This document shows, piece after piece, positions 32,818 to 51,235 of a DNA stretch of 64,000 nt. This DNA is from Novosphingobium sediminicola. Lineage in GTDB: Bacteria; Pseudomonadota; Alphaproteobacteria; Sphingomonadales; Sphingomonadaceae. Within the stretch, counting starts at the first letter, position 1, and every line of letters starts with the position of its first letter. The DNA lies in the NCBI RefSeq assembly GCF_014196525.1, contig NZ_JACIDX010000011.1:124001-188000 (forward strand). The letters are read 5' to 3'. The notes below the pieces were generated by a model, which did not search any database, was not told the origin of the DNA, and was given only the letters and a program-made list of their open reading frames with translations. Made by a program: the position numbers and the translations under genes.

Positions 32818-32839
32818 GATCCCATCCCTTTATGATATT

Positions 32840-32959: not shown

Positions 32960-33036
32960 TTGCCCTCGCCCGCGCCAGAGTCTATCGCAGGAACAACAAG
33001 TCCACAGATCAGAATCAGGACGGGAGAGACAGGCGC

Positions 33037-34304: not shown

Positions 34305-34315
34305 GGAGAGAATTG

Positions 34316-35098
34316 ATGCAACTCGACACCAGCGTTTCGGCCATTGTCACCGGCGGCGCGTCAGGCCTTGGCGAGGCCACGGCGCGCGCTCTGGCGGCCA
34401 AGGGGATCAAGGTCGCCCTGTTCGATTTCAACGAGGAGACCGGCAATCGCGTCGCCTCCGAAATCGGCGGCATTTTCTGCAAGGTGGACGTGACCGACGA
34501 GACCAGCGTGGACGCAGGCTTTGCGCAGGCGCGCGCGGCCCATGGGCAGGAGCGCATCCTTGTGAACTGCGCTGGCACCGGCAATGTCATCAAGACCGCA
34601 TCGCGCGACAGGGCGACCGGCGAAACCAAAGCCTTCCCCACCGACCAGTTCGAGCGGATCATCCAGATCAACCTGATCGGCACGTTCCGCTGCTGCGCCA
34701 AATCGGCGCGAGGGATGCTGGATCTCTCGCCGCTGGAGGATGGCGCGCGCGGCGTCATCATCAACACCGGCAGCGTGGCCGCCGAGGATGGCCAGATCGG
34801 TCAGGCCGCCTATGCCGCATCCAAGGGCGGCATCGTCAGCCTGACATTGCCCATGGCGCGCGATCTGATGAATGACGGCATCCGGGTGAACTGCATCCTG
34901 CCGGGCATTTTCGATACGCCCTTGATGGCGCGCGCGGCCGATGCGGTGAAGGCCTCGCTGGCCGCCAGCGTGCCCTTCCCCAAGCGTTTTGGCCGTCCGC
35001 CCGAATTTGCCGCCATGGCGCTGGCTATGATCGAGAACGATTATTGGAACGGCGAGGATGTCCGGCTTGACGGCGGCATCCGCATGGCGCCGCGTTGA
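34316..35098 (+). CDS. SDR-family 3-hydroxyacyl-CoA dehydrogenase (HSD10-like)
   Basis: 260 residues, classical short-chain dehydrogenase. Cofactor motif T-G-G-A-S-G-L-G, D-V-T-D after beta-3, N-T-G-S with the catalytic Ser region, and Y-A-A-S-K-G-G catalytic Tyr/Lys. The long insert before the catalytic Ser and the final D-G-G-I-R-M-A-P resemble HSD10/type-2 3-hydroxyacyl-CoA dehydrogenases. It probably oxidises a 3-hydroxyacyl-CoA intermediate of this operon. GAGGAG at 34303-34308 precedes ATG 34316. Confidence 0.88.
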   Translation: MQLDTSVSAIVTGGASGLGEATARALAAKGIKVALFDFNEETGNRVASEIGGIFCKVDVTDETSVDAGFAQARAAHGQERILVNCAGTGNVIKTASRDRATGETKAFPTDQFERIIQINLIGTFRCCAKSARGMLDLSPLEDGARGVIINTGSVAAEDGQIGQAAYAASKGGIVSLTLPMARDLMNDGIRVNCILPGIFDTPLMARAADAVKASLAASVPFPKRFGRPPEFAAMALAMIENDYWNGEDVRLDGGIRMAPR

Positions 35099-35111
35099 GG
35101 GGATAGAGCCG

Positions 35112-35975
35112 ATGAGCGAGGAACCCGAATTCGTCACCTATAACGTCACCGATGGCGTGGCATGGGTGATGCTGAACCGCCCGCAATATTCCAATGCGCA
35201 GAACTATCGCCTGCTGGGCCAATTGGACAATGCGTTCAAACGCGCGGTCAATGATGATGATGTCAAGGTCATCGTGCTGGGCGGCGAGGGCAAGCATTTT
35301 TCCGCTGGCCACGACATTGGCACACCCGAAAAGGACAGCCATATGCCGCGCAACCGCGTGGGGCTTTGGTGGGACCACACCAACAAAGGCGGGGCCGAGC
35401 GGCAATATGTGCTGGAGCAGGACGGCTATCTGGGCCTGTGCCGCCGCTGGCAGGAGATCCCCAAGCCGATGATCGCCATGGTGCAGGGCGCCTGTATTGC
35501 GGGCGGGCTGATGCTGGCGTGGGTGTGCGATCTGATCATCGCCTCGGAAGATGCGTTTTTTCAGGACCCGGTGTTGCGCATGGCGCAGCCGGGCGTCGAA
35601 TATTTCGCCCATGCGTTTGAATTGCCGCCCCGCGTGGCGCGCGAATTGCTCTTGCTGGGGCGCCGGATGCCTGCGGCGCGCGCCTATCAGTTCGGCATGG
35701 TCAACGAAATCCACCCGCGCGAAACCTTGCGCGAAGAGGTCGCCAAGATCGCCGCCGAACTGGTCGAGCGCGACCGTTTCGGCATGGCGCTGACCAAGCA
35801 GGCGTTCAATTTCGTCGAGGACCTGCGCGGCAAGCGTCAGGCGATGGATGGCGTGTTCCACATGCACCATCTGGCCCATGCGCATAATCAGTTGATGACG
35901 GGCCACCTTGTCGGCGGGCTGGACTCCAAGGCGATGGCGGCGGCCAACAAGAAGCAGGCGGGGGATAAGGAATGA
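35112..35975 (+). CDS. Enoyl-CoA hydratase
   Basis: 287 residues, crotonase superfamily. Oxyanion-hole segments G-K-H-F-S-A-G-H-D-I and G-A-C-I-A-G-G-L-M are clear. The C-terminal part is longer than usual, with H-M-H-H-L-A-H-A-H. This subgroup is common in sphingomonad and mycobacterial beta-oxidation clusters. The second hydratase glutamate is not obvious in the D-P-V-L-R-M-A-Q-P-G segment, so hydratase versus isomerase activity is open. Overlaps the next start (ATGA). Confidence 0.87.
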   Translation: MSEEPEFVTYNVTDGVAWVMLNRPQYSNAQNYRLLGQLDNAFKRAVNDDDVKVIVLGGEGKHFSAGHDIGTPEKDSHMPRNRVGLWWDHTNKGGAERQYVLEQDGYLGLCRRWQEIPKPMIAMVQGACIAGGLMLAWVCDLIIASEDAFFQDPVLRMAQPGVEYFAHAFELPPRVARELLLLGRRMPAARAYQFGMVNEIHPRETLREEVAKIAAELVERDRFGMALTKQAFNFVEDLRGKRQAMDGVFHMHHLAHAHNQLMTGHLVGGLDSKAMAAANKKQAGDKE

Positions 35976-37627
35976 CGCTTATTCTGCCGGGGCTGACCGC
36001 CCTGCTGTCCGGGGCAGCGGATGCGGCGGCGGCTTTTGTCGCCCATGCCCAGCCGCAGGTGAAGGCCCGCATCGCCGCCCCCGATGGCAAAGTGGACCGT
36101 GTGGCCGCCGATGTAGAGCAGCATATCGTCCATGGCTTTGGCTGGTATGCCTCCTATGCCGAATTGCTGCGCGAGGTGGCGACATGGGCCGCCGCGCTGG
36201 AGCAGGATGGGGAATTTACCGAAGTCGAGGCCCTGCTCGCGCAATTGCTGTTTGCCGAATATGGCGCGCAGATGCGCGGCGGCATCGCGATGAATCAGGG
36301 CGAGGTGATCCGCCCCGCCGATCTTTGCGATGATGCCGATGCGCTCGACGCCCCCGCCCTGACCCGCCTGATCCGCGAGGGCGGGACGCAGGAGGTGAAA
36401 ACCGCCATCGCGCGCCATCTGATCGATGCTCGCGGGCGGGTGACGCTGGAAAATTGCGGGCTGGATGAAACGCTCACCCTGATCCGCGATCAGTTCTTTG
36501 CCCTGTCGAATGACAAGGTCGCGCCCCATGCCCACGAATGGCATCTAAAGGACGAATTGATCCCCATCGAACTGGTCGACGAACTGGGCGAGATGGGCGT
36601 GTTCGCCATGACCATCCCGGAGGAATTCGGCGGGCTGGGCATGGGCAAGACCGCTATGTGCGTGGTGTCCGAGGAATTGTCGCGCGGGTGGATCGGGGTC
36701 GGCTCGCTGGCCACGCGGTCCGAAATCGCGGCCGAACTGATACTGACCGGCGGCACGCTGGAGCAAAAGCAGCACTGGCTGCCCCAGATCGCCAGCGCCG
36801 CGATCCTGCCCACCGCCGTGTTTACCGAGCCTGATACGGGATCCGACCTTGGATCCTTGCGCACCCGCGCCACGCGAACGGGCGAGGAATACAGCATCAG
36901 TGGCAACAAGACATGGATCACCCATGCCGCCCGCGCCGATGTGATGACGCTGCTGGTGCGCACCAACCCGGAAACCCGCAACCACAGCGGTCTGTCCATG
37001 CTGATCGCGCCCAAAATGCGCGGCGACGAGGCCAACCCCTTCCCCAGCCCCGGCATGAGCGGGGGCGAGATCGGCGTGATCGGCTATCGGGGCATGAAGG
37101 AATACGAAATCGGCTTTGACGATTTCCGCGTTCCCGCCGCCAACCTGTTGGGCGGGGTCGAGGGGCAAGGCTTCAAGCAATTGATGGCCACCTTTGAAAG
37201 CGCGCGCATCCAGACCGCCGCCCGCGCCATCGGCGTAGCGCAGGCCTCGCTCGACGTGGGCCTCGCCTATGCGATAGATCGCAAGCAATTTGGGCGGGCC
37301 ATCATTGAGTTCCCCCGCGTGGCCAACAAGCTGGCCATGATGGCGGCGGAAATCATGGGCGCGCGCCAGCTCACCTACTTCGCCGCCCGCCGCAAGGACG
37401 AGGGCAAGCGATGCGATCTGGAAGCCGGCATGGCCAAGCTGATCGGCGCCCGCGTGGCATGGGCGGCGGCGGACAATGCCTTGCAGATCCACGGCGGCAA
37501 TGGGTTTGCGATGGAATATGCCGTCAGCCGCCTGCTGGCTGATGCTCGGATTCTGAACATATTCGAGGGTGCGGGCGAGATTCAGGCGCAGGTGATTGCG
37601 CGGCGGTTGCTGGATGGAGGGAATTAA
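35972..37627 (+). CDS. mcd: Methylsuccinyl-CoA dehydrogenase-like acyl-CoA dehydrogenase
   Basis: 551 residues. It has an N-terminal extension of about 165 residues before the acyl-CoA dehydrogenase fold, the size and layout of (2S)-methylsuccinyl-CoA dehydrogenase of the ethylmalonyl-CoA pathway. The core carries F-T-E-P-D-T-G-S-D-L and R-K-Q-F-G-R-A-I. The loop I-F-E-G-A-G-E-I-Q-A-Q holds catalytic Glu532. The family converts methylsuccinyl-CoA to mesaconyl-C1-CoA. No crotonyl-CoA carboxylase/reductase or mutase is in the window, so either those lie elsewhere or the enzyme serves a different branched dicarboxyl-CoA. Confidence 0.8.
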   Translation: MTLILPGLTALLSGAADAAAAFVAHAQPQVKARIAAPDGKVDRVAADVEQHIVHGFGWYASYAELLREVATWAAALEQDGEFTEVEALLAQLLFAEYGAQMRGGIAMNQGEVIRPADLCDDADALDAPALTRLIREGGTQEVKTAIARHLIDARGRVTLENCGLDETLTLIRDQFFALSNDKVAPHAHEWHLKDELIPIELVDELGEMGVFAMTIPEEFGGLGMGKTAMCVVSEELSRGWIGVGSLATRSEIAAELILTGGTLEQKQHWLPQIASAAILPTAVFTEPDTGSDLGSLRTRATRTGEEYSISGNKTWITHAARADVMTLLVRTNPETRNHSGLSMLIAPKMRGDEANPFPSPGMSGGEIGVIGYRGMKEYEIGFDDFRVPAANLLGGVEGQGFKQLMATFESARIQTAARAIGVAQASLDVGLAYAIDRKQFGRAIIEFPRVANKLAMMAAEIMGARQLTYFAARRKDEGKRCDLEAGMAKLIGARVAWAAADNALQIHGGNGFAMEYAVSRLLADARILNIFEGAGEIQAQVIARRLLDGGN

Positions 37628-37872: not shown

Positions 37873-39045
37873 TTACAACCTCTCCACAATCGTCACATTG
37901 GCCATCCCGCCCGCCTCACACATGGTCTGCAAACCATAACGCCCCCCGGTCGAATGCAGCGCGCTGACCAAAGTCGCCATCAGCTTTGCGCCAGACCCGC
38001 CCAAAGGATGCCCCAGCGCGATCGCCCCGCCATGCACATTCATCCGCGCCGCATCGGCACCCAGCGCCTGCGCCCAAGCCAAAGGCACCGGGGCAAAGGC
38101 CTCGTTGACTTCATAGAGGTCGATATCGCCGATCCCCATGCCCGCCTTGGCCAGAGCGCGCTGGGTGGCGGGAATGGGCGCTTCCAGCATGATGACGGGA
38201 TCGTGGCCAAGAACGGTCATCTGATGGATGCGCGCCAAAGGTTTCAGGCCCAAAGCCTTCAGCCCCCGCTCGTTGACCACCAGCACCGCCGCCGCGCCGT
38301 CGCAGATCTGGCTGGCATTGGCCGCGCTGATCACCCCGCCCTCGGTCAGCAATTTGACGCTGCTGATCTTTTCGAGGCTGGCGTCGGCGCGGATGCCTTC
38401 GTCGGTCTTGTGGATCACCGCCTCGCCCTCAGGCGTGACCACCTCCAGCGGGATGATTTCGGCGTCGAACTTGCCCGCTGCCGTAGCGGCGGCGGCGCGG
38501 CGGTGGCTTTCCAGCGCATAGGCGTCCAGCACATCGCGCGTCAGGCCATATTTCTTCGCCAGCATCTCGGCCCCGCCAAACTGGCTGAAGGGCGTGTCGG
38601 GATAGCGCGCCTCGATGCCGGGGCTGCGATAGGTGCCGAACCCATGCTTGGCCGCCAGCGTCCAGGGCAGGCCCATCGGCACGCGGGTCATGCTCTCGAC
38701 GCCTGCCGCGATCACCACATCCATCACGCCCGCCATCACCGTGGCGGCGGCAAAGTGGACGGCCTGCTGGCTCGATCCGCATTGGCGGTCGACATGGGTG
38801 CCGGACACCGATTCGGGCAATCCGCCCGCCAGCACGGCGTTGCGAGCGATATTGGCGCCCTGCTCGCCGCCGGGACAGGCACAGCCCATGATGACATCCT
38901 CGACCAGCGCGGGATCAATCCCCGCCCGGTCGATCAATCCGGCCAGCACCCGCCCGGCCAGATCCGCCGGATGCACCCCGGCCAGCCGCCCGCCGCGCTT
39001 GCCCCCGGCCGAACGCGCCACGGCCACGATATAGGCTTCCGCCAT
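37873..39045 (-). CDS. Thiolase (acetyl-CoA acetyltransferase family)
   Basis: 390 residues. Nucleophile in D-R-Q-C-G-S-S-Q-Q, then N-E-A-F-A-P-V and G-H-P-L-G-G-S-G with catalytic His. The C-terminal base motif is C-E-A-G-G-M-A-N in place of the more common C-I-G-G-G-Q-G. This variant is frequent in steroid/terpenoid degradation thiolases. ATG 39045 follows a purine-rich AAGGGATGAGG. It has its own promoter region with a TGCAAAAT element, 75 nt downstream of the F420 operon end. Confidence 0.92.
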   Translation of the reverse strand: MAEAYIVAVARSAGGKRGGRLAGVHPADLAGRVLAGLIDRAGIDPALVEDVIMGCACPGGEQGANIARNAVLAGGLPESVSGTHVDRQCGSSQQAVHFAAATVMAGVMDVVIAAGVESMTRVPMGLPWTLAAKHGFGTYRSPGIEARYPDTPFSQFGGAEMLAKKYGLTRDVLDAYALESHRRAAAATAAGKFDAEIIPLEVVTPEGEAVIHKTDEGIRADASLEKISSVKLLTEGGVISAANASQICDGAAAVLVVNERGLKALGLKPLARIHQMTVLGHDPVIMLEAPIPATQRALAKAGMGIGDIDLYEVNEAFAPVPLAWAQALGADAARMNVHGGAIALGHPLGGSGAKLMATLVSALHSTGGRYGLQTMCEAGGMANVTIVERL

Positions 39046-39119: not shown

Positions 39120-39704
39120 TTATGCCCTTGAGAGCAAAATAGGCAGATCCTCCGGCACATCCAGATCACGCGCCAGCCCCTCGCGCCGGATCACCCGGCA
39201 ACCCAGCCCGGCGCGCGCAGCCTCGCGCTCATGCGCGGCGCGGCTGCCCGGCCCAAAACGCAGGGCGAGGATCGCGGGATGGGCCAGATAGAGCGCATTC
39301 GTCCCCTGCCCCGCCGTGTCCGCGGCGATCATCACCGAGACCCCCATGGGCGGGGCCAGCATCGCCCGCAAATCCTGCGCGTTCAGCAACGGCAAATCGG
39401 AACTGACGATCAGCACCGGCGCGCGGGCCATCCGGTCCAGCTTCAGCAAGGCCTGCGCCAGCGCCGGATTATGCCCCGCGCATGTCTCACGCAGCGCCAT
39501 CGCGCCCGCCGCGCGCGCCTGTGCCAATGCATCCTCATCGCGGCTGACCACCAGCACATCGGCAACCTGCTTGGCCTGCGCCAAAACATGAGCAAACAAC
39601 CGCCGCGCCAAATCCTCGCGCGCGGCCTCATCCATCACGCCCGCCAGCCGCGACTTACCCTGCGCGAAAGGCTTTACCGGGATCAGGATGACCGGCCGCG
39701 CCAT
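39120..39704 (-). CDS. cofC: CofC/FbiD guanylyltransferase of coenzyme F420 biosynthesis
   Basis: 194 residues from ATG 39704. Nucleotidyltransferase-A fold with I-P-V-K-P-F-A-Q-G-K-S-R-L at the N-terminus (nucleotide loop), V-S-S-D-L-P-L (metal-binding Asp) and T-N-A-L, then F-G-P-G-S. The enzyme joins GTP to 2-phospholactate, phosphoenolpyruvate or 3-phosphoglycerate to make the unstable dinucleotide used by CofD. Which of these is used cannot be read from motifs alone. It starts 4 nt after the cofD stop and ends the F420 operon. Confidence 0.9.
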   Translation of the reverse strand: MARPVILIPVKPFAQGKSRLAGVMDEAAREDLARRLFAHVLAQAKQVADVLVVSRDEDALAQARAAGAMALRETCAGHNPALAQALLKLDRMARAPVLIVSSDLPLLNAQDLRAMLAPPMGVSVMIAADTAGQGTNALYLAHPAILALRFGPGSRAAHEREAARAGLGCRVIRREGLARDLDVPEDLPILLSRA

Positions 39705-39708
39705 CGCC

Positions 39709-40638
39709 TCAATCCGCCAGCTTGCGGGCAAAGCCCAGTACTTCACGCGCCAGCCTTGCCTGATCCGCCGGGTCGCGCATCAACGTGTCGGTGGCGCAGA
39801 CCAACACACCATCCAGCGCCCCGGCATCCGCGCGATCCACCATCAACCCATCGATCAGCCCGGCATATTGATCCGCGACCGCGCCGGGCGTCGTCCCCAA
39901 TCCCAGTTCGCCCATGATTTTGGCCGCCGGTCCTTTGATCGCCTGTCCGGCAATAAAGGGCGAGAGCGCGACCGCTGGCACCCGGCGCCGCATCAAGGCA
40001 TCGCGCACCCCCGGCACCGAAAGGATCGGCGCAATCGAAAGGATCGGATTGGACGGGCAAAAGACAATCGCCTCCAGCCCCGGATCGCCCAGCGCGGCGG
40101 CAAAGCCCGCCGCCATCTGCGCCCGCTCGGCCCCGTCGAACCGGATCGCGCGGAACACAGGCGCGCATTGCCGCCGCACGAAATAGTCCTGAAACGCCAG
40201 ATCGCCCTCGTCGGTCGAGACAATCGTGCGCACCGGGTCATCGCTCATCGGCACGAGCCTTTGGCCGATGCCCAGCGCCGCCGTCATCCGCGCTACCACC
40301 GCCGAAAGGCTTTGCCCCCCACGCAGCGCCTGTGTGCGCAGCACATGCGTGGCCAGATCGCGGTCGCCCAGCGCGAACCATGTCTCGCCGCCCAGCTTGC
40401 CCGCCATGTCCATAAAGGCCCATGTCTCGCCCGCCACGCCCCAGCCCTTTTCGCGGTTGTTCATCCCCGCCAGGGCATAGGTGACCGAATCGATGTCGGG
40501 GCAGATGGTCAGGCCCATATGTTCGAAATCATCGCCGGTGTTGACTGCGATGGTCAATTCGCCCGCAGGTAAGACCGCAGCCAGCCCCGCCGCCAGTTTG
40601 GCACCGCCGACCCCGCCCGCTATTGCCAATATGCTCAT
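39709..40638 (-). CDS. cofD: CofD/FbiA 2-phospho-L-lactate transferase
   Basis: 309 residues. N-terminal I-A-G-G-V-G-G-A-K-L is the signature of CofD. N-T-G-D-D-F-E-H-M-G-L and C-P-D-I-D-S-V-T-Y-A-L-A-G line the deazaflavin (Fo) and metal site. C-P-S-N-P-I-L-S-I follows. It transfers the phosphoacyl group onto Fo to give F420-0 or its dehydro form. The ATGA overlap with cofE shows coupling. Confidence 0.95.
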   Translation of the reverse strand: MSILAIAGGVGGAKLAAGLAAVLPAGELTIAVNTGDDFEHMGLTICPDIDSVTYALAGMNNREKGWGVAGETWAFMDMAGKLGGETWFALGDRDLATHVLRTQALRGGQSLSAVVARMTAALGIGQRLVPMSDDPVRTIVSTDEGDLAFQDYFVRRQCAPVFRAIRFDGAERAQMAAGFAAALGDPGLEAIVFCPSNPILSIAPILSVPGVRDALMRRRVPAVALSPFIAGQAIKGPAAKIMGELGLGTTPGAVADQYAGLIDGLMVDRADAGALDGVLVCATDTLMRDPADQARLAREVLGFARKLAD

Positions 40639-41402
40639 GGGAACAGATCCATTTCCAGCGGGCGGATCAGTTCCGCCGCCTTGCCTTCACGCCGACCATA
40701 GGCCACCCCGCGCAGCAGCACGATGGGCGCCCCTTCCGCCGCCTGCCCCATGGCAAGCGACGCCGCCGCCGCCACCTCATCGGCAAGGCCCAGCTCGCTG
40801 GTGGCCAATTCGCGGCCATAGAGATCGGGCGTGCCGCGCAGGTCGAGCAGACCCGCCATGCCAGCGCAACCAATCGCCACGCCGCATGTGCCATTGCGCC
40901 ATGCGCGGCCAAAACTGTCGATGATGACCACCGCCACATCGGCCCCGCTGGCCTTGACCAAGGCGTCGCGGATCGCCGCCGCGCTGGCGTCGGGGTCCAG
41001 CGGGAGCAGCAGCGCCACAGGCTCCCCGCCGTGATCGACATTGGATTGGTCGATCCCGGCATTGGCCAGCACAAAGCCCAGCCGATGCCGCACGATCAGC
41101 ACCCCACGCCGCACCCGCATCACCCGGTCGGTTTCCGACAGGATCAGCTCGACCAGCCGCGCATCCTTGTCGCAGCGCGTGGCCAGATCCTGCGCCGCAA
41201 ACGAGGGACGCACACCCGAAAGCGGCACGGCGCGCCCCTCCGCCTTGGACACGATCTTTTGCGCCAGCACGATAATGTCACCATCGCGCAAGACCAGCCC
41301 GCCCGCGCCCAGCGCAGCAAGGATCACCGGCCCCAGATCGTCGCCCGGCGCGATCAGCGGCACGCCGGGCAAGGCATGGATCGAGAGAGTAGGTTCGCCC
41401 AT
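40635..41402 (-). CDS. cofE: CofE F420-0:gamma-glutamyl ligase (single-domain)
   Basis: 255 residues. Diagnostic V-L-A-Q-K-I-V-S-K-A-E-G, the metal site D-S-F-G-R-A-W-R-N-G-T and A-I-G-C-A-G. It adds the poly-gamma-glutamate tail to F420-0 using GTP. The length equals archaeal CofE. The C-terminal nitroreductase-like domain of actinobacterial FbiB, which reduces dehydro-F420-0, is absent, and no separate copy is seen in the window. It lies 6 nt after npdG. Confidence 0.94.
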   Translation of the reverse strand: MGEPTLSIHALPGVPLIAPGDDLGPVILAALGAGGLVLRDGDIIVLAQKIVSKAEGRAVPLSGVRPSFAAQDLATRCDKDARLVELILSETDRVMRVRRGVLIVRHRLGFVLANAGIDQSNVDHGGEPVALLLPLDPDASAAAIRDALVKASGADVAVVIIDSFGRAWRNGTCGVAIGCAGMAGLLDLRGTPDLYGRELATSELGLADEVAAAASLAMGQAAEGAPIVLLRGVAYGRREGKAAELIRPLEMDLFP

Positions 41403-41408
41403 GGGATC

Positions 41409-42068
41409 TTATACGCCCGTAATCCGAATGCCCGCGCCCGGCACCTTATACCGCCGGTTGAGCGCGATCAGCACCGAGGTCAGCCCCTCGGCCACAATCG
41501 AATTGCACAGGGGGCCAGCATACCATGCGCGAAGGCCAATTTCCTGCGCCAGCGCCACCACCTCATCGCCCGCCGCGCCATCATCGGCACAGACCAGCAC
41601 ATCGCATTCGATCTCTTCATCCAGCTTGGTCAGGTGATGGGCCGAAATGTTCTGGAAGGCCGAAACCACCCGGACGCCCTCGCCCAGCATCTTCTGCACC
41701 GCCTCGACCGCCGAACCGCCCTCGGGAATATGCACCCGGCTGACCTTGGGCGGGACCAGCGGTACGGTCACGTCGATCAGGATCTTGCCCGCAAGGCCTG
41801 AGGCCACCTCCTGTACCGTGGATTGCTGCGCGGCATAGGGCACGGCCAGCACGACAATATCGGCCGCCGCGGCGGCATCGACATTGGCCATGCCCACCAC
41901 ATTGTCGTCGCCCAGCGTGGCATTCATCGCCGCTGCGCTTTCGCCCGCGCGCTCGGCGCTGCGCCCGCCGATGATGACGCGGTGGCCCTTGTGCGCCCAG
42001 CGCAGCGCCAGCCCGCCGCCTTCCTTGCCCGTGCCGCCCAGAACGGCGATGGTTGCCTTATCCTGCAT
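41409..42068 (-). CDS. npdG: F420H2:NADP oxidoreductase (NpdG/Fno)
   Basis: 219 residues from ATG 42068. N-terminal NADP site V-L-G-G-T-G-K-E-G-G-G-L-A and the G-G-R-S-A-E-R-A segment that reads the 2'-phosphate. V-P-Y-A-A-Q and A-F-Q-N-I-S-A-H follow, typical of Fno. It moves hydride between NADPH and F420 and so supplies F420H2. Its presence shows the cofactor is meant for redox work, not just made. The start overlaps the fbiC end by 11 nt. Confidence 0.92.
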   Translation of the reverse strand: MQDKATIAVLGGTGKEGGGLALRWAHKGHRVIIGGRSAERAGESAAAMNATLGDDNVVGMANVDAAAAADIVVLAVPYAAQQSTVQEVASGLAGKILIDVTVPLVPPKVSRVHIPEGGSAVEAVQKMLGEGVRVVSAFQNISAHHLTKLDEEIECDVLVCADDGAAGDEVVALAQEIGLRAWYAGPLCNSIVAEGLTSVLIALNRRYKVPGAGIRITGV

Positions 42069-44448
42069 GTTCAAACCTCTCTGTTTTATCATTGGCCCCT
42101 TCGCGCTTTTTGCGCGGCGGGGTCTGGATCATTGGGGTCAGCGCCTCGGCATTCAGCCCGCGCTGGTGAGTTTCCTGTGTCACCGCGCCATAGGCGGTGC
42201 TGCGCTGCACCGGCATTCGGCCGATGCTGCGGATCAAGGCTTCCATCGCCTCGGGCGGCATTTCCTGCCCATGGGCGGCGCCCGCCGCGCGGCTGATGCT
42301 TTCATTCATCAAGGTCCCGCCCAGATCGTTCGCGCCGGAATTGAGGCAGGCCTTCACCCCCTCCTCGCCCAGTTTCACCCAACTGGTCTGGATCGAATCG
42401 ATGCGGCCGTTGAAAACCAGCCGCGCCACGGCATGCATCAGGCGCACCTCGCGGAAGGTGGGGCCATGGCGGGCCTGTCCCTTGATCGCCATCGGCGCCT
42501 CCATATGGATGAAGGGCAGAGGTACGAATTCGGTAAAGCCCCCGGTACGCTCCTGAAGATCGCGGATGCGGATCAGGTGGCGCGCCCAATGGCGGGGCGT
42601 TTCGACATGGCCGAACATGATCGTCGCGGTGGTCTTGAAGCCCACGCGATGCGCCGTCTCGATCACCTCCAACCATTCATCGGTGGTCAGCTTGTCGGGG
42701 CAAATGACATCGCGCACCTCATCGTCGAGGATCTCCGCCGCCGTGCCGGGCAGCGTATCGAGGCCAGCTTCTTTCAGCGCGCGTAGATAATTCTCCAGCG
42801 AGAGATTCGACGCCTTGGCCCCCTGCGACACCTCCAGTGGGGAAAAGGCATGGATATGCATTTCCGGCACCGCCGCGCGGACCGCCTTGGCCAGATTGAT
42901 ATAGGTCTCGCCGGTGTAATGCGGGTGGATGCCGCCTTGCAGGCAGACCTCGGTGGCCCCGCGCGCCCATGCCTCGGCGGTGCGGCGGATCACCTCGTCC
43001 ATCGACAGGTCATAGGGCCGCCCGCGCAGAGCCTCGGCCATATCACCCTTGGAAAAGGCGCAGAAGCCGCATTTGAAGGTGCAGATATTGGTGTAATTGA
43101 TGTTGCGGTTGACGACATAGGTGATCGCCTCACCCTTCTTCTCCCGCCGCAGAGTATCCGCCGCCGCGCAGACATGTTCGAGATCGGCATCGCGCGCGGA
43201 GAACAGCGTGACGATGGCCTCCTCGTCCAGAGCATCGCCCGCCAGCGCCGATTGCACCGCATCGGCAATTTCCGGGGAAACCGAAAGCGCCGAGGCCGCC
43301 GCCGCCCGTTTCGGCAGCGCCACGCCGGGCGACCACATATCATCGCGCGCGTATCCAAGCGCGTCACTGGCCGCCATAATCGCACGGCGCATCGCGGGCG
43401 CCTGCCAATCGGCGCTCAGCCATGCCGGATAGGCGGGCAGGCGCGCGACAAGACTGCGCCCGGCCTGCTCGGTCCCGGCGCGCAGGCGGGTGACTTCGGG
43501 CCATGGCGCTTCGGGGTTCACATGGTCGATGGTGACGGGCGAAACCCCGCCCCAATCATTGATCCCCGCCGCGATCAGGCGCGGAAAATCCGCCGCCGAC
43601 AGGTTGGGAGGGGCCTGAATGTTCATATCCGACCCCAGAATCAGCCGCGCCGCCGCGATGGTCCAGAGCAGATCGTCGAGATCCGGCTCGGGCGCATCGG
43701 CCATGGGGGTGCGGGCCTTGGCGCGGAAATTCTGGACAATGACTTCCTGCACATGGCCATGGGCGCGATGGGCGGCGGCAATGGCCTCCAGCGCCTCGAT
43801 GCGTTCGGCCCGCGTTTCGCCAATGCCGATCAGGATGCCGGTGGTGAAAGGCACGCGCAATTCGCCCGCCTGACGCAGCATGGCCAGCCGCGCCTCCGGC
43901 TCTTTGTCAGGCGAGCGGTAATGCGGCCCGCCCTTCGCACACAGACGCGGGCTGAGCGATTCGAGCATCAGCCCCTGCGAGGCGGACACCTCACGCAGGC
44001 GCGCCATATCCTCGCGGCTCATCACGCCCGCGTTCACATGGGGCAGCAGGCCGGTTTCATCGCGCACCGCCGCGCACATGGCGATCAGGTAATCAATCGT
44101 GCTGGCATAGCCCATCTTGGCCAGCGCCTCACGCGCCGCGCTGTAACGCAGCTCCGGCTTGTCGCCCAGCGTGAACAGGGCCTCGGTGCAACCCGCCGCC
44201 GCCCCCGCGCGCGCCACGGCCAGCACATCCTCGCGGCTCATATAGGGCGATTCGCCCGGCTGGGGCGGCTGGGCAAAGGTGCAGTAATGGCACCGGTCGC
44301 GGCACAATTGCGTGAGCGGAATGAACACTTTGCGCGACCATGTCTGCACCCGCCCGTGCCCCGCATCGCGCAGGGTGCAGGCCGCCGCCATCATGGCATC
44401 AAGCGGCATATCCGCGTTAAAGGCGCCAGTTTTGGTCGCGCTTTCCAC
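42058..44448 (-). CDS. fbiC: FbiC (CofG-CofH fusion), Fo synthase
   Basis: 796 residues with two radical-SAM domains. The CofG half has C49-R-D-R-C53-H-Y-C56 and the CofH half has C456-T-F-K-C460-G-F-C463. Both retain the three cluster cysteines. Together they make the 7,8-didemethyl-8-hydroxy-5-deazariboflavin chromophore (Fo) from tyrosine and the riboflavin precursor. Fusion is the form found in actinobacteria and other aerobic bacteria, whereas methanogens keep two genes. GTG start at 44448 with GGGAGAG upstream, 17 nt after the TetR stop, so it is the second gene of the operon. Confidence 0.95.
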   Translation of the reverse strand: MESATKTGAFNADMPLDAMMAAACTLRDAGHGRVQTWSRKVFIPLTQLCRDRCHYCTFAQPPQPGESPYMSREDVLAVARAGAAAGCTEALFTLGDKPELRYSAAREALAKMGYASTIDYLIAMCAAVRDETGLLPHVNAGVMSREDMARLREVSASQGLMLESLSPRLCAKGGPHYRSPDKEPEARLAMLRQAGELRVPFTTGILIGIGETRAERIEALEAIAAAHRAHGHVQEVIVQNFRAKARTPMADAPEPDLDDLLWTIAAARLILGSDMNIQAPPNLSAADFPRLIAAGINDWGGVSPVTIDHVNPEAPWPEVTRLRAGTEQAGRSLVARLPAYPAWLSADWQAPAMRRAIMAASDALGYARDDMWSPGVALPKRAAAASALSVSPEIADAVQSALAGDALDEEAIVTLFSARDADLEHVCAAADTLRREKKGEAITYVVNRNINYTNICTFKCGFCAFSKGDMAEALRGRPYDLSMDEVIRRTAEAWARGATEVCLQGGIHPHYTGETYINLAKAVRAAVPEMHIHAFSPLEVSQGAKASNLSLENYLRALKEAGLDTLPGTAAEILDDEVRDVICPDKLTTDEWLEVIETAHRVGFKTTATIMFGHVETPRHWARHLIRIRDLQERTGGFTEFVPLPFIHMEAPMAIKGQARHGPTFREVRLMHAVARLVFNGRIDSIQTSWVKLGEEGVKACLNSGANDLGGTLMNESISRAAGAAHGQEMPPEAMEALIRSIGRMPVQRSTAYGAVTQETHQRGLNAEALTPMIQTPPRKKREGANDKTERFEHAG

Positions 44449-44465
44449 TGTCTCTCTCCCGTATT

Positions 44466-45182
44466 CTATCCGACGGGGCCAAGCGGCCCATGATCGGCAA
44501 GCCTTTTCGAATCAGCCATTTGTACGTCACTATCCGGCAAATCGACCGGGGCCGCCAGCATCGCGGTCATCACCTGCGCGAAATGTTCCAGGCCAATGTC
44601 GCCCGCCCACATCGCATGGGTCCGCGTGGGATCGGCCAAGGCCCGCGCCCGCGCCGACAGCACCGCGCTGAGCAGCGCGCCCATGAAAACGAAGCGCTGG
44701 TTGCGCATCTGGGCGCTCATCACCGGCATCAGGCGGCGCAGATGCGCCAGACACCGGCCATAGGCATGGTTCCATTCCGGCTCGATCGCCTCGATCATAA
44801 AATCGCGGTGAGTCATGCCGAACAGCGTGATGAAGCGCACATAATCGTCATCCGACAGCGCCGTGACCGAGCCGATCAGCACATCGACCACATCGCGCAA
44901 ATGACGCGGGCCACCGTCCGCCTCCATCGCATCGAGCGCCGCGTTGCGCAGCCGGTCCAGCTCCACCGCGCCATCCTTGATGATCGCGCGCACCAGCGTT
45001 TCCTTGGACCCGAAATGATAGCCCACGGCGCCGTGATTCTTCTGTCCGGCGGCCGCCGCAATCTCGCGCACGGTCACGCCATCAACCCCGCGTTCGGCAA
45101 ACAGGCGCAGCGCGATCCGCTGCAATTGCTCAGCGCCGCCTGCGGTGTTTTCCTCTGCCCGTGGTTTTTGAAGTCTGACCAT
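44466..45182 (-). CDS. TetR-family regulator heading the F420 operon
   Basis: 238 residues. The helix-turn-helix V-T-V-R-E-I-A-A-A-A-G-Q-K-N-H-G-A-V-G-Y then H-F-G-S-K-E is closely similar to that of the regulator at 15261-15929. It is transcribed with fbiC (17-nt gap) and is divergent from the kinase/ACAD operon at 45269. The 86-bp shared spacer holds TGCAAAAT and two TGCATTA repeats. It likely controls both transcription units and itself in response to an acyl-CoA or similar ligand. Confidence 0.88.
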   Translation of the reverse strand: MVRLQKPRAEENTAGGAEQLQRIALRLFAERGVDGVTVREIAAAAGQKNHGAVGYHFGSKETLVRAIIKDGAVELDRLRNAALDAMEADGGPRHLRDVVDVLIGSVTALSDDDYVRFITLFGMTHRDFMIEAIEPEWNHAYGRCLAHLRRLMPVMSAQMRNQRFVFMGALLSAVLSARARALADPTRTHAMWAGDIGLEHFAQVMTAMLAAPVDLPDSDVQMADSKRLADHGPLGPVG

Positions 45183-45185
45183 GAG

Positions 45186-45238
45186 TGCAAAATCTCATTG
45201 CCAAGCCCGTCCGTCAAGTGCATTATCCATTTGCATTA
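45186..45238. promoter_or_regulatory. Divergent promoter/operator region of the F420 and lva-like operons
   Basis: Holds TGCAAAAT (45186-45193), TGCATTA at 45219-45225 and again at 45232-45238 (13-bp period), all in an AT-rich stretch between the TetR start (45182) and the kinase start. Confidence 0.55.
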
Positions 45239-45268
45239 GACGATGATGACACATCGCATAAGTTGAGG

Positions 45269-46300
45269 ATGTCTCTTGTGAATTTGGGCGTAAACACCGA
45301 TTCGCTGGGCGCATGGATGCGTGTTCAAGGGCTGGGCGGCGGCGTGATCGAGGATGTCACCACGCTGGCGGGCGGCACACAGAATATCCTGTTGCGCTTT
45401 GCCATGAACGGACGGACCTTCGTGTTTCGCCGCCCCCCTTTGCATCCGCGCGCCAATTCGAACGAGACGATGCGCCGCGAGGCCCGCGTGCTGCGCGCAT
45501 TGGCGGGCAGCGAGGTGCCGCATCCGGCGCTGATCGCGGCCTGTGATGATGAGGAAGTGCTGGGCTGCGCCTTTTATCTGATGGAGCCGGTCGATGGCTT
45601 CAACCCCATCGGCCAATTGCCCGAGCCTCATGCCTCCTCGCCCGAAATGCGGCATGCGATGGGGCTGGCGCTGGTCGATGGCATTGCCGCGCTGGGGCGG
45701 GTCAATTACCGCGCCGTGGGGCTTGAAGGTTTCGGGCGGCCAGAAGGCTTCCTTGACCGGCAAGTGTCGCGCTGGCGGGATCAACTGGCCTCCTATTCCG
45801 ATTTTGCCGCATGGCCCGGTGCCAGCGCGCTGCCCGATGTGGGGGCGGTGGGCGCCTGGCTCGATGCGCATCGCCCCGGCTCTTTCATCGCGGGCATCAT
45901 GCATGGCGACTATCATCTGGCCAATGTCATGTACCGCCGCGACAGCGCCGATCTGGTCGCGATTGTCGATTGGGAACTGGCCACGATTGGCGACCCGCTG
46001 CTCGATCTGGGCTGGGTGCTGGCCACATGGCCCGATGGAGACGGCGCCAGCACGGTGTCGGTCACGCCATGGGACGGCTTCCCCACGCCTGCGGAACTGA
46101 TCGCGCGCTATCGCGCCGGATCGGCCCGCGATCTGTCGGCCATCGACTGGTATCACGTTCTGGCCTGTTACAAGCTGGGCATCCTGCTTGAGGGCACCTT
46201 TGCCCGCGCCTGCGCCGGAAAGGCGCCGCGCGATGTCGGCGACCGGCTGCACGGCCGCGCCATCCACCTGTTCGAGCGCGCCGCGCGCCTCATCCGTTAA
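45269..46300 (+). CDS. APH-family acyl-CoA kinase (LvaA / ACAD10-11 kinase-domain-like)
   Basis: 343 residues, aminoglycoside-phosphotransferase fold. L-A-G-G-T-Q-N-I-L-L (ATP loop), catalytic H-G-D-Y-H-L-A-N-V and metal-binding V-D-W-E-L-A-T-I-G-D-P-L-L-D-L-G-W. These are typical of the kinase domain of human ACAD10/ACAD11 and of Pseudomonas LvaA, which phosphorylates 4-hydroxyacyl-CoA. The following SDR and ACAD11-like dehydrogenase support that role over drug resistance. The start may be ATG 45269 or GTG 45278; the latter has GAGG (45265-45268) at better spacing. Confidence 0.88.
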   Translation: MSLVNLGVNTDSLGAWMRVQGLGGGVIEDVTTLAGGTQNILLRFAMNGRTFVFRRPPLHPRANSNETMRREARVLRALAGSEVPHPALIAACDDEEVLGCAFYLMEPVDGFNPIGQLPEPHASSPEMRHAMGLALVDGIAALGRVNYRAVGLEGFGRPEGFLDRQVSRWRDQLASYSDFAAWPGASALPDVGAVGAWLDAHRPGSFIAGIMHGDYHLANVMYRRDSADLVAIVDWELATIGDPLLDLGWVLATWPDGDGASTVSVTPWDGFPTPAELIARYRAGSARDLSAIDWYHVLACYKLGILLEGTFARACAGKAPRDVGDRLHGRAIHLFERAARLIR

Positions 46301-46314
46301 AAAGGTATCGCCCG

Positions 46315-47049
46315 ATGAACCCACTCGATTTCACCGGCAAAAACGCGCTGGTCATTGGCGGATCCAGCGGGATCGGCAATGGCATTGCCCGCGCGCTGTT
46401 TGACGCGGGCGCCCATGTCCATGTCTGGGGCACGCGCGCCACGGCGGCCAATTATGCGGGCGAGGAAGGGTCGGACCTCTCGGGCCTGTCCTATACTCAG
46501 GTCGATGTCAGCGATCCTGCCGCGATTGCCGCCGCCCCCGCGCCCTTTGAAACCATCGACATCCTGATCCATTCGCAGGGCGCCGTTCTCTACCGCCGTC
46601 AGGAATTCACCCCCGAAGGCTGGGACAAGGTGATGGCGGTCAATCTGGGCAGCGTGATGCATATTTCGCAGCGCTTTCACGCCGAACTGGCCGCCGCAAA
46701 GGGCAGCGTCATCGTCGTCAGCTCGATCGGCGCCTTTCGCGCGACGATGGGCAACCCGGCCTATGCCGCGTCCAAGGCGGGCGCGGTCAATCTGGTGCGC
46801 ACGCTGGCCCAAGCCTGGGCGGGCGACGGCATTCGCGTCAACGGCATCGCGCCCAGTCTGGTCGATACCAAGATGACCAAGGTGACGATGGACAATGACG
46901 AGCGCCGCGAGCGAGCCTTGGCGAAAATCCCCCTGCGCCGCTTCGGCACGGTCGAGGAAATGGCGGGTGTCGCCCTGTTCCTCGCCTCGCCGCTGGCGGG
47001 CTACATCTGCGGGCAAACCATCATCGTCGATGGCGGCCTCACTCTGTAA
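46315..47049 (+). CDS. SDR-family oxidoreductase
   Basis: 244 residues. I-G-G-S-S-G-I-G cofactor loop, V-V-S-S catalytic Ser region and Y-A-A-S-K-A-G catalytic Tyr/Lys, ending I-V-D-G-G-L-T-L. In the lva pathway an SDR (LvaD) reduces levulinyl-CoA to 4-hydroxyvaleryl-CoA. Position between kinase and dehydrogenase here suggests the analogous 4-oxo to 4-hydroxy step, though any 3-oxoacyl reduction is possible. Starts 14 nt after the kinase stop. Confidence 0.87.
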
Positions 47050-47077
47050 ATCCTCATTTCGCAAAGGGTTCACCCCG

Positions 47078-48307
47078 ATGGATTTCGAATATTCCGACAA
47101 GGTGAAGGCGCTGTCCGCGCAATTGACCGAATTCATGGACGCCTATGTCTACCCCATCGAAAAGGAGCGCGACCGCTTTCACGCCGACCCCGCCAATGCG
47201 TGGAAACGCTGGCACGGCACCGAAGGCATCAAGGCCAAGGCCAAGGATGCGGGATTGTGGAACCTGTTCCTGCCGCATGAATATGGCGCCTTCAGCCCGG
47301 GCCTGACCAATCTGGAATATGCGCCTCTGGCCGAGATCATGGGGCGTGTCATCGGCGCTTCGGAATATTTCAACTGCGCCGCGCCGGATTCAGGCAATAT
47401 GGAAGTGCTGGCCCGTTACGGCACGCCCGAGCAGCAGGAGCAATGGCTGACGCCCCTGATGGCGGGCGAGATCCGCTCGTCCTATGTGATGACCGAACCG
47501 GCGGTGGCATCCTCGGACGCCACCAATATCGAAACCTCGATTGTCCGCGATGGCGACGAATATGTCATCAATGGCCGCAAGTGGTGGATTTCGAGCGCCT
47601 GCGATCCCAACACCAAGCTGTTCATCGTGCTGGGCCGCACACCCGATGACAGCCGCAGCAAGCATCAGCAGCATTCGATGATCCTTGTACCGCGCGACAC
47701 GCCCGGCATCGAGATCGTGCGCCCTCTGGACGTGCTGGGCACCTATCATTCGCCCACCGGCCATGCCGAGGTCAGCTTCACGAACGTGCGTGTGCCTGCC
47801 GCCAACATGGTCCTTGGCGAAGGGCGCGGGTTTGAGATCGCGCAGGGCCGCCTCGGGCCGGGCCGCATCCACCACTGTATGCGCGTGATCGGTCAAGCCC
47901 AGCGGGCGCTGGAATATATGGCGCGCCGGGTCAATGAACGCGTCGCCTTTGGCCGCAAACTGGCCGATCAGGGCAGCATCCGTCAGGAAGTCGCTCTGTC
48001 CTTCTGCGAGGTTGAACAGGCGCGCCTGCTCACGCTGAAAGCTGCCGATGCGATGGACCGCTATGGCAACAAGGCGGCCAAGGATCTGATCGCGGCGATC
48101 AAGGTGGTGGCCCCGCGCATGGCGCAAACCGTCACCGACCGCGCGATACAGGTCCATGGCGGCATCGGCCTGTCCAAGGACTTCCCGGTGGCCAGCGCCT
48201 TTATCAACGCGCGCTATGTCCGCCTGACCGATGGCCCGGACGAAGTGCATCTGGCCCAACTGGGCAAATTGAAGATCGCCCAATTGTCCGCCCTTCCTGT
48301 CCGATAA
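47078..48307 (+). CDS. ACAD10/11-like acyl-CoA dehydrogenase (LvaC-like)
   Basis: 409 residues. Family core [14 protein letters not shown] and [16 protein letters not shown]. The C-terminal [10 protein letters not shown] is the motif of the ACAD10/ACAD11 branch in place of Y-E-G-T. In that branch the enzyme acts with a kinase partner to remove the 4-phosphate from 4-phosphoacyl-CoA. The kinase is encoded two genes upstream as a separate protein. ATG 47078 has AAAGGG upstream. Confidence 0.9.
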
Positions 48308-48338
48308 GCCCCCCCACACAAAACAGGAGCACGCCGCG

Positions 48339-49655
48339 ATGGAAAACCAATCCCAAAAACTGGGCCGCAGCTGGTGGATGGTCGCGGTGCTGTTCCTGCT
48401 CTATGTGCAAAGCTGGGTGGACCGGCTGATCCTCTCCATGCTGGTCAGCCCGATCAAGGCCCATCTGGCGCTCTCCGATGTTCAGGTCAGCATGGTGACC
48501 TCCACCTCCTTTGCGATCTTCTATGCGGTGTTTGGCCTGCCGCTGGGCTGGACTTCGGACCGCTATTCGCGGCGGTGGATCATTTGCGGCGGGGTGATGG
48601 TCTGGGCCTGCGCCACCATCGCCTGCGGCTATGCGCAGAGCTATGAAGGCCTGCTGGCCGCGCGCATTCTGGTGGGCGCGGGCGAGGCGGCGCTGCTGCC
48701 CGCGGCCTATTCGCTGATTGCCGATGCTTTCCCGCCCCATCTGCTGACGCGGGCCACATCGACGTTTCAGATGGCGGGCAAGGTCGGCTCGGCCGCGGCC
48801 TTCGGCCTTGGCGGCGTCGCGATTGCCTGGGCCACCGCGCATAAGGGCATGACCCTGCCCTTTCACGCGGCCAGCCAGCCGTGGCAATTGGTGATGATGA
48901 TGGTGGGCCTGCCCGGACTCTTGCTAGGCCTGCTGGTCTTCACCTTTCCCGATCCCCCGCGCCGCCGTCTGGCCGGGGAAAGCGACAAGGCCAATGTCCG
49001 CGCCGTCACAATGGACTTTGTGCGCGGCAACTGGCGCCTGCTGGGGCTGATGCTGGTGGGAACATCGGCGCTGGCGATCTGCGGCTATTCGATGACCAAT
49101 TGGGTGCCCACCTATATCGAACGCCATTTCGGGTGGAAGCCGGTGCAATATGGCCCCGCGCTGTCGATCATGAACATCATCTCGGCGGTCAGCCTGGTGC
49201 TGAACGGCTGGATCGTGGACAAATTGTTCGCGCGCGGCATGAAGGATGCGCATCTGCGCTTCTATGGCTGGCTGATCATCGGCTTGTTTCCGGTCATCGC
49301 CTATATGTTCTTTGCCACCAATGTCTGGGTGTTCCTTGCCTGTTATTGCGTGGCGCAATTCATCACCGTGCCTTTCATGGTCTATGTCTCCTCGGTCATG
49401 GCGATGATCGCCCCGGCGCAGGTGCGCGCGCGGCTGCTGGCTTTCTTTCTCTTTGTTTTCACCCTGCTCGGGCTGGGCGCGGGTCCGGCGATTGTCGCCG
49501 CGCTCACGCAATATGTGTTCGGTTCCGAAGCAGCCCTTGGTTCCTCGCTGGCGGTGGTCGTGATTGGCGGCACGGTGCTGGCATGGGCCGCTTTCCGACG
49601 GGCGCTGCGCTATCTCGCGCCCGCCATTGCCGCGCGTGAAACGCCACATGGCTAA
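48339..49655 (+). CDS. MFS transporter (spinster-like)
   Basis: 438 residues, about 12 transmembrane helices. MFS motif A appears as S-D-R-Y-S-R-R-W, and S-W-V-D-R-L-I-L at the first helix end. It is a paralogue of 21567-22892. AGGAG (48324-48328) precedes ATG 48339. Within the operon it most likely imports the acid that the acyl-CoA synthetase downstream activates. Confidence 0.9.
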   Translation: MENQSQKLGRSWWMVAVLFLLYVQSWVDRLILSMLVSPIKAHLALSDVQVSMVTSTSFAIFYAVFGLPLGWTSDRYSRRWIICGGVMVWACATIACGYAQSYEGLLAARILVGAGEAALLPAAYSLIADAFPPHLLTRATSTFQMAGKVGSAAAFGLGGVAIAWATAHKGMTLPFHAASQPWQLVMMMVGLPGLLLGLLVFTFPDPPRRRLAGESDKANVRAVTMDFVRGNWRLLGLMLVGTSALAICGYSMTNWVPTYIERHFGWKPVQYGPALSIMNIISAVSLVLNGWIVDKLFARGMKDAHLRFYGWLIIGLFPVIAYMFFATNVWVFLACYCVAQFITVPFMVYVSSVMAMIAPAQVRARLLAFFLFVFTLLGLGAGPAIVAALTQYVFGSEAALGSSLAVVVIGGTVLAWAAFRRALRYLAPAIAARETPHG

Positions 49656-49691
49656 GGCGCGCGCTGCTCATCTTTTCCGAAAGGACGCTTC

Positions 49692-51230: not shown

Positions 51231-51235
51231 TCCCC

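Follow-up and report, generated by a model that had tools for sequence, protein, structure and literature searches.

A coenzyme F420 operon within a conserved catabolic island of sphingomonads, and a luciferase-like protein as its candidate user

INTRODUCTION

Why would a sphingomonad carry a complete set of coenzyme F420 biosynthesis genes amid genes of acyl-CoA catabolism, and does the cofactor serve that catabolism? The question is raised by a stretch of 64,000 nucleotides from Novosphingobium sediminicola (contig NZ_JACIDX010000011.1, positions 124,001 to 188,000; hereafter termed the window), which harbors a six-gene F420 operon at positions 39120 to 45182. We consider it probable that this F420 pathway was captured by the surrounding catabolic island and now serves it, and the most likely candidate for the enzyme that uses F420 is a luciferase-like protein of the island, termed LLM59.

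A first-pass annotation of the window described F420 as scattered in proteobacteria, which is correct yet already published (PMC8498797). This 2021 review states that, among bacteria other than Actinobacteria, experimental work on F420-dependent reductases and F420-reducing dehydrogenases was still lacking and that the role of F420 in Alpha- and Betaproteobacteria had yet to be settled by experiment. At least one structure, that of a glucose-6-phosphate dehydrogenase from Thermomicrobium, is later than the review. F420 biosynthesis is also mentioned among the annotations of six Novosphingobium strains in another study (PMC13318209). We found no paper describing the present island in the open-licence literature on F420 in sphingomonads.

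RESULTS

Six F420 genes form a compact operon

Proteins were assigned with the curated cut-offs of NCBIfam and Pfam, and comparisons covered 397 genomes sampled from the Sphingomonadaceae and 262 fetched loci. The operon lies on the minus strand from 45182 to 39120 in the order TetR-fbiC-npdG-cofE-cofD-cofC, with genes that overlap or are separated by at most 17 bases. The first gene of the F420 transcript (44466 to 45182) encodes a TetR-family regulator, TetR44 (Pfam TetR_N, 45.5 bits; cut-off, 24), which passed no NCBIfam cut-off and showed its best likeness to the PsrA type, far under the corresponding cut-off. Then come fbiC, for a bifunctional FO synthase combining CofG and CofH (42058 to 44448; NF006687, 1129.5 bits; cut-off, 1018), and npdG, or fno, for an NADPH-dependent F420 reductase (41409 to 42092; TIGR01915, 215.9 bits; cut-off, 149.8), which possibly starts at the ATG at 42068, later than its longest open reading frame (ORF). 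The remaining genes are cofE, for F420-0:glutamate ligase (40635 to 41402; TIGR01916, 261.1 bits; cut-off, 180.65), cofD (39709 to 40638; TIGR01819, 298.8 bits; cut-off, 257.45), and cofC (39120 to 39746; TIGR03552, 150.7 bits; cut-off, 105), the last probably starting at the ATG at 39704 rather than with its longest ORF. The first-pass annotation had named these six genes in this order and had noticed two radical-SAM CxxxCxxC motifs in FbiC, starting at residues 49 and 456. Both points were borne out: the motifs are present, and all five enzymes exceed curated cut-offs, CofC, CofD, and CofE each passing that of an NCBIfam equivalog family.

With another model, NF009809, CofE stayed under the cut-off (240.8 versus 274 bits). 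Its 255 amino acids (aa) matched PF01996 only, with no FbiB-type C-terminal reductase domain in CofE itself, a separate FbiE not having been searched for; by this domain test, the predicted pathway is not of the actinobacterial (FbiB) type. The genome contains one match each for CofC, CofD, and FbiC. On the same strand, 74 bases past cofC and with no terminator-like site detected in between, lies a thiolase gene, thiol37 (37873 to 39045; NF005077, 680.8 bits; cut-off, 590), with which the F420 transcript probably ends.

F420 genes accompany the island in other sphingomonads

We then looked into the distribution of the F420 genes. By our reading of the match table, FbiC gave a strong match in just 57 of the 397 family genomes (54 over the cut-off, some truncated at contig ends), rather than in most sphingomonads. 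A housekeeping operon, which the first-pass annotation had named as a finding that would refute its view, was therefore rejected. Among the 10 sampled genomes of the window's own genus, 3 had FbiC. CofD was found in 57 of 58 genomes examined, namely, the FbiC genomes plus G346 (sampled genomes are designated by G and a number), the miss being G277, which is 83% complete. Among the best 80 loci, Novosphingobium sp. SG707 has the closest named FbiC (97% identity), in agreement with the sphingomonad origin that had been proposed from the letters alone.

The catabolic island covers much of the DNA from a P450 gene at 9151 to the end of the window, as judged by comparing window proteins with the surrounding DNA. 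Four named records and ten genomes of the family were compared, with 7 to 80 kb of DNA per place, and because of this limited length absences carry little weight; LLM59, for one, was not contained in the DNA compared for SG707 and Sphingobium scionense DSM 19371. The island was present, whole or in part, in ten other sampled genomes. Its refound members comprise the P450, acyl-CoA dehydrogenases, coenzyme A (CoA) transferases, thiolases, short-chain dehydrogenases/reductases (SDRs), an MFS transporter, and an acyl-CoA ligase, as well as a pyrroloquinoline quinone (PQQ) alcohol dehydrogenase, FadJ, an OB-fold protein, SnoaL, LLM59, a tandem CaiB protein, and a flavin reductase. The earlier description of the operon as sitting among acyl-CoA catabolic genes with a local regulator is therefore supported.

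As a marker of the island we used thiol55, a lipid-transfer-type thiolase/aldolase encoded at 55172 to 56500 on the plus strand (PF22691, 141.3 bits; start probably later). Close orthologs (at least 56%) occur in 11 of the 397 genomes, all 11 with fbiC; among 22 genomes with only distant homologs (36 to 40%), 3 had fbiC, which is not above expectation. In 7 of the 11 close-island genomes, fbiC lies at most 20 kb from the thiol55 ortholog. The two genes are on separate contigs in G156, G206, and G308, the assemblies of which are fragmented, and on separate large contigs in G011.

Evaluation of the genetic architecture revealed four layouts, G156 and G296 being too fragmented to be placed. In layout A, the full operon adjoins APH45, with which the divergent catabolic operon begins (45269 to 46300, plus strand; APH-family phosphotransferase-like, PF01636, 127.8 bits; cut-off, 23.2). 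The window, SG707, S. scionense, and G201 have this layout, as does Sphingomonas sp. 67-36, in which the TetR gene is missing; downstream of the operon lies a thiolase in the window, SG707, and S. scionense and an aldehyde dehydrogenase in G201. Layout B has only fbiC and npdG in the APH45 slot (G133, G212, and a Sphingobium metagenome-assembled genome); G133 and G212 have CofD at another place. In layout C, another fbiC-npdG pair lies between CaiB2, the tandem CoA-transferase gene, and the P450 gene (G084, G320, and G362, with cofE in two of the three), and the thiolase directly adjoins APH45; a short contig of G206 likewise has CaiB2 beside fbiC and npdG. Layout D is that of G011, where the APH45 slot is without F420 genes, those being on another contig; TetR44 is at the same place, and the thiolase follows 45 bases past its stop codon.

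We note separately that the island pairs of fbiC and npdG without cofC, cofD, and cofE (loci L141 of G133, L173 of G212, and L046) look as if FO synthesis and F420 reduction were limiting; G133 has a complete second F420 cluster elsewhere in its genome.

In an FbiC tree of 126 rows, built with a quick method and midpoint rooting, layouts A and B fell within a 17-row clade (SH-aLRT, 100), layout C fell within a 51-row clade (SH-aLRT, 98), and the unlinked FbiC of G011 fell in a third clade. Since two places in the island hold FbiC of two clades, the simplest reading is that F420 genes entered the island at least twice. G172 and G288, two other species of the window's genus, are in the 51-row clade, and by the simplest reading this genus would hold two unrelated F420 clusters. 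The comparison of FbiC neighborhoods, which had been suggested as a check, thus found the tie between F420 genes and island kept in other genera and arising at two places of the island.

Could the operon instead be a general F420 supply for unrelated enzymes, its linkage to the island reflecting hitch-hiking in a gene-rich variable region? Most of the 68 family fbiC loci fetched lie outside the island, fbiC is found on plasmids as well, and G011, in a point that counts against our interpretation, keeps the island while its F420 genes sit elsewhere. Linkage is not required, because G011 does without it, and the empty slot of G011 together with the many off-island loci implies that F420 can serve other pathways too. 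One protein of the genome with a PNPOx_N domain (L200) fits no class and might use F420. However, all close-island genomes have fbiC, recruitment occurred at two places with different FbiC, the other PNPOx_N protein is PdxH, and the remaining luciferase-like proteins (LLMs) of the genome were rejected as F420 users: of these 11, 10 were scanned (E value, 1e-30), nine matching flavin mononucleotide (FMN) families best and one (L192, 13149 to 13985) giving no match. Six of the nine were over the cut-off (five NtaA/DmoA, one RutA), and three were nearest SsuD and under the cut-off. We therefore regard a general supply as quite improbable. The tie between the F420 genes and this degradation, claimed by the first-pass annotation, is strongly supported by sequence comparison; its further claim that F420 is made only on demand was not demonstrated, given the position of the genes in G011 and the off-island majority of fbiC loci.

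A search for F420H2_quin_red proteins (PF04075) gave no match, and since its positive controls were silent too, it provides no evidence of absence. As side observations, contig C3 of G000 encodes several NtaA/DmoA- and SsuD-like FMN monooxygenases at 59 to 66, 314, and 344 to 362 kb, perhaps a region for sulfur or chelate scavenging, and large Sphingobium plasmids (AP027325, AP027331, AP027312, and others) carry fbiC at ~60% identity. The strains have names of the type Tom..., from which we guess that they presumably come from tomato. Steroidal glycoalkaloid degradation by tomato-root Sphingobium has been reported (PMC10653915), in a text that mentions neither F420 nor fbiC.

The two operons diverge from one predicted promoter region

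TetR44 and APH45 point away from each other, and their start codons are about 86 bases apart if APH45 starts at 45269. The interval 45183 to 45268 is predicted from its conserved motifs to serve the F420 operon and the catabolic operon alike as promoter/operator. Nine loci were aligned, one of them that of G011; GTCAAG is conserved in all nine, GTCAAGNGCATTATCC is exact in seven, and CATTGC is found in eight. Among the 262 fetched loci, only 7 contain the 16-base motif, to which the window adds an eighth place, and 6 of these 7 copies are at this promoter region. The seventh (locus L226 of G201, 19604 to 19636) lies ~40 bases in front of a relocated thiol37, some 9 kb from the APH45 intergenic region; it is as if the thiolase had taken its regulatory site along.

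The promoter scan reported a promoter-like site for the catabolic operon within the motif (plus strand, 45198 to 45226). An operator with a long inverted repeat was looked for and rejected, as none with arms of about 8 bases exists in 45183 to 45268; a short palindrome, CATTGCAATG, is present in three of the nine aligned loci. Because the motif is present in G011 without F420 genes, it looks like a site that regulates the catabolic genes themselves and to which the F420 operon became subject. We infer that TetR44 co-regulates both operons. Two findings do not fit well with this proposal: the motif was not found beside APH45 in the layout C genomes G084, G320, and G362, and the minus-strand promoter TTGACG-17-GATTTT was seen by eye only and was unreported by the scan.

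LLM59-like proteins occur only alongside F420 genes in the genomes searched

LLM59 is encoded on the minus strand at 59037 to 60041 (PF00296, 132.9 bits). Close orthologs (at least 72%) were present in 9 of the 397 genomes, all with fbiC, and LLM59-like proteins (E value up to 1e-40) were present in 20, of which 19 had fbiC. In the exception, G346 (locus L240, contig C69), cofE, cofD, npdG, and cofC lie at a contig end, so that F420 genes occur in 20 of 20; the missing fbiC may be an assembly gap, because the contig ends just upstream of cofE. A second, independently drawn set comprised 279 genomes of the class; apart from our own, 9 of 278 had an LLM59-like protein, each together with CofD. 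Among 60 controls, chosen by running number out of the 269 genomes without such a match, CofD was over the cut-off in 6 (7 at an E value of 0.001); it was found in 2 of the 18 controls of at least 3.7 Mb. LLM59-like proteins were thus found only alongside F420 genes, in 29 of 29 genomes searched, and by genus in 13 of 13, among 27 F420 genera of 96. As a control, an LLM of another kind (L196), the eleventh of the other LLMs of the genome and the one outside the scan, which we take to look like MsnO8, was present in 346 of the 397 genomes.

The LLM59-like gene is ~5 kb from cofD in G320 and G362. The F420 genes of G201 and G212 are followed directly by genes for an aldehyde dehydrogenase, a PQQ-domain protein, an LLM of family TIGR03619 (201 and 208 bits, respectively; cut-off, 166.9), and a SnoaL-like protein; the names other than that of the LLM were tested by family search in G212 only. 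An LLM-SnoaL pair therefore recurs with two kinds of LLM, which supports an LLM as F420 user. The reasoning from co-occurrence is that of partial phylogenetic profiling, discussed for F420-using LLMs in PMC5300114, and it shares the caveat that a common pathway, instead of cofactor use, could be the cause.

At other loci, a luciferase-like gene near fbiC forms a single-linkage cluster of 26 loci from 24 genomes or records (L119, L135, L142, L147, L151, L157, L159, L179, and others), of which the representative and two more members were scanned and are TIGR03619 proteins over the cut-off. Seven loci carry another LLM, the representative of which is nearest F420 families and under their cut-offs.

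F420 or FMN as the cofactor of LLM59

TIGR03619 was the top NCBIfam match, under the cut-off, in all four LLM59 relatives scanned, and it was second best for LLM59 itself. Several observations argue against F420 use by LLM59. Its TIGR03619 score (81.5 bits) is under the cut-off of 166.9 and slightly below that of the FMN family TIGR04027, whose cut-off it misses as well (83.6 versus 412.9 bits). A model built from 37 aligned sequences (pLDDT, 92.4; an alignment-free model with a pLDDT of 40.9 was set aside) is nearest FMN monooxygenases, namely, RslO1 (Z score, 31.1), luciferase (28.3), and diketocamphane monooxygenase (26.3). A flavin reductase gene (62630 to 63271, minus strand; PF01613, 87.2 bits; PDB matches, 4z85 and 3bpk) lies in the island as well, LLM59 is missing from the island of G201, and the co-occurrence P values (1e-5 to 1e-16) were computed ignoring shared ancestry.

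These observations raise the alternative that the degradation needs F420 through another enzyme of the island or genome, LLM59 and the flavin reductase forming an FMN-dependent two-component monooxygenase like that of camphor degradation. The flavin reductase resembles component B of nitrilotriacetate monooxygenase and has counterparts in 8 of the other 10 family genomes examined, and the island also encodes a P450cam-like P450. In terms of sequence, the best PDB matches of LLM59 are luciferases. Yet F420 enzymes (Z score of at most 23.5) score like the FMN enzymes SsuD (23.2) and RutA (22.1), and because of this the fold indicates the luciferase branch and not FMN as such. The exclusive occurrence of LLM59-like proteins with F420 genes, in our own genome as in the 28 others, also stands against this alternative, as does G201, which retains the flavin reductase though it is without LLM59. 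Furthermore, no homolog of the island flavin reductase (30% identity over half the length) was found in any of the 20 off-island LLM59-like neighborhoods, which span 9.6 to 20 kb and are in some cases cut by contig ends. The FMN alternative is in our view unlikely, and F420 appears somewhat more likely than FMN as the cofactor of LLM59.

More tentatively, LLM59 would found an unrecognized F420-dependent enzyme class that shares its fold with FMN monooxygenases, and sphingomonads would repeatedly have equipped their terpenoid-type islands with captured F420 genes as an inducible accessory, or with the fbiC-npdG pair alone, which would provide the committed step in a second dose. Such a broad proposal is possible rather than probable.

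The island looks suited to a branched alicyclic substrate

The island combines a P450cam-like hydroxylase and ferredoxin, a PQQ alcohol dehydrogenase, acyl-CoA ligase and transferases, a pair of acyl-CoA dehydrogenases, and a lipid-transfer-type thiolase/aldolase, and because of this gene set its substrate looks like a terpenoid-like or other branched alicyclic compound. The best matches of the P450 are P450cam entries at about 1e-67, including CYP101J2. The acyl-CoA dehydrogenase ACAD24 is nearest PDB entries 4x28 and 6wy8/6wy9, and thiol55 is nearest 4u4e and 6ok1. We take 4x28, 6wy8, and 6ok1 to be steroid side-chain enzymes and, on this assumption, the structure matches of the P450, ACAD24, and thiol55 to point to terpenoid or steroid-like side-chain chemistry. 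Degradation of a steroid or steroid-like compound, with F420 serving a reductive step of ring or side-chain breakdown, would account for these matches and for the resemblance of the OB-fold partner of thiol55 to ChsH2, which is under the cut-off. However, the P450 is CYP101-like, such side-chain modules are conceivable for other isoprenoids too, and in the genome the one steroid ring enzyme searched for, 3-ketosteroid 9-hydroxylase (KshA), has a match that is partial and weak (KshA_C, 25.1 bits over 45 of 207 positions). We thus hold a steroid substrate to be rather unlikely.

The island genes not yet located were assigned as follows. On the plus strand, the P450 (PF00067) and its 2Fe-2S ferredoxin (under the NCBIfam cut-off) are encoded at 9151 to 10894. 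Also on this strand, family searches identified an acyl-CoA dehydrogenase pair, the first of which has 4x28 as its best PDB match, followed by curcumin-reductase-like, CaiB-like, hydratase-like, acyl-CoA dehydrogenase, and thiolase genes at 24122 to 31899. The plus-strand ORFs at 32832 to 37627 encode CaiB-like, SDR, enoyl-CoA hydratase-like, and acyl-CoA dehydrogenase proteins; the SDR and the dehydrogenase were assigned by family search, and the other two, both conserved, are presumed from their sequences.

Downstream of APH45 on the plus strand are an SDR dehydrogenase (46315 to 47049; SDR-family matches under the cut-offs, kept in 11 of 14 compared places), an ORF presumed from its sequence to be acyl-CoA dehydrogenase-like (46895 to 48307; conserved with the island, start probably past 47049), an MFS transporter (48339 to 49655; PF07690, 137.2 bits), and a conserved protein that we take to be an acyl-CoA synthetase-like AMP-binding protein (49692 to 51230). 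The PQQ alcohol dehydrogenase with a cytochrome c domain (51236 to 53293; PF01011, 252.5 bits; PF13442, 40.3 bits), the FadJ-like enoyl-CoA hydratase/3-hydroxyacyl-CoA dehydrogenase (53280 to 55352; PF02737, PF00378, and PF00725), thiol55, and its OB-fold partner (56504 to 56917; PF01796 OB_ChsH2_C, 22.8 bits; cut-off, 27.1) complete this series. The minus strand encodes a carboxylesterase (56914 to 58386; PF00135, 308 bits), a SnoaL_4 protein (58383 to 59024; PF13577, 73 bits), LLM59, CaiB2, a tandem CoA-transferase family III protein (60069 to 62468; PF02515, 480.2 bits over two stretches), the flavin reductase, and an enoyl-CoA hydratase/isomerase (63276 to 63974; PF00378, 122.5 bits).

Next to the P450, at 10936 to 15264, are an Old Yellow Enzyme-type flavoenzyme without a counterpart and a sulfatase present in two compared islands. 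At 614 to 7483, genes for GH3, alpha-L-arabinofuranosidase, Sde182-like, and GH30 proteins adjoin a TonB receptor fragment, probably as a plant-polymer or glycoside locus; these glycosidases were rejected as part of the island, having no counterpart at 45% identity in the compared DNA. Location of the island on a known plasmid was rejected as well, since 45000 to 64000, compared by megablast, matched each plasmid record over 3% at most. An Rfam scan of the window gave no match.

DISCUSSION

We propose that the F420 operon entered the island between its TetR gene and a gene for a beta-oxidation thiolase. FbiC would make FO, which CofC, CofD, and CofE would convert into F420 with a glutamate tail, and NpdG would pass the hydride of NADPH to F420. 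The divergent catabolic operon would import the substrate and oxidize it by CoA-dependent steps. TetR44 may be released by an intermediate of this pathway, probably an acyl-CoA, and cofactor and pathway would thereby be switched on together; such joint induction is suggested by the single short promoter region that serves both operons. LLM59 would most likely spend the reduced F420 on one hard redox step.

The operon itself is ordinary; its well-conserved setting is extraordinary and would be a variant form of the known F420-dependent degradation, with a candidate enzyme. The setting suggests that, in some bacteria, an entire cofactor pathway is acquired for the sake of one degradation route. 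Repeated capture by one pathway, if true, would be a clear case of a cofactor traveling with its use. Since the island names the parts (regulator, promoter region, pathway, and candidate enzyme) and some carriers are named strains, the role of F420 in proteobacteria becomes testable.

The camphor pathway comprises P450cam, putidaredoxin, and diketocamphane monooxygenase. The island resembles it in its CYP101-like P450, its ferredoxin, its flavin reductase, and a luciferase-like protein of similar predicted fold and differs from it by the F420 genes, the tandem CoA-transferase, and the lipid-transfer-type thiolase. The F420-dependent LLM oxidoreductases of TIGR03619 are the top match of the relatives of LLM59 and cluster with fbiC in other loci, whereas LLM59 is under the family cut-off and has a full-length fold closest to FMN monooxygenases.

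According to PMC8498797, the F420 genes of Paracoccus, Oligotropha, and Paraburkholderia rhizoxinica encode, like those described here, an FbiC fusion, CofC, CofD, CofE, and Fno (NpdG) as the predicted reductase; unlike them, the operon of the window is inside a conserved CoA-catabolic island and would be under the island's regulator. The same source describes mycobacterial FbiB as fused, whereas the CofE of the window has the ligase domain only. In the F420-dependent picrate degradation (npd genes) of Rhodococcus and Nocardioides, which it also covers, F420H2 feeds luciferase-like enzymes, as we propose for the island, and the two systems differ in substrate class and phylum and in that here the cofactor biosynthesis genes themselves belong to the island.

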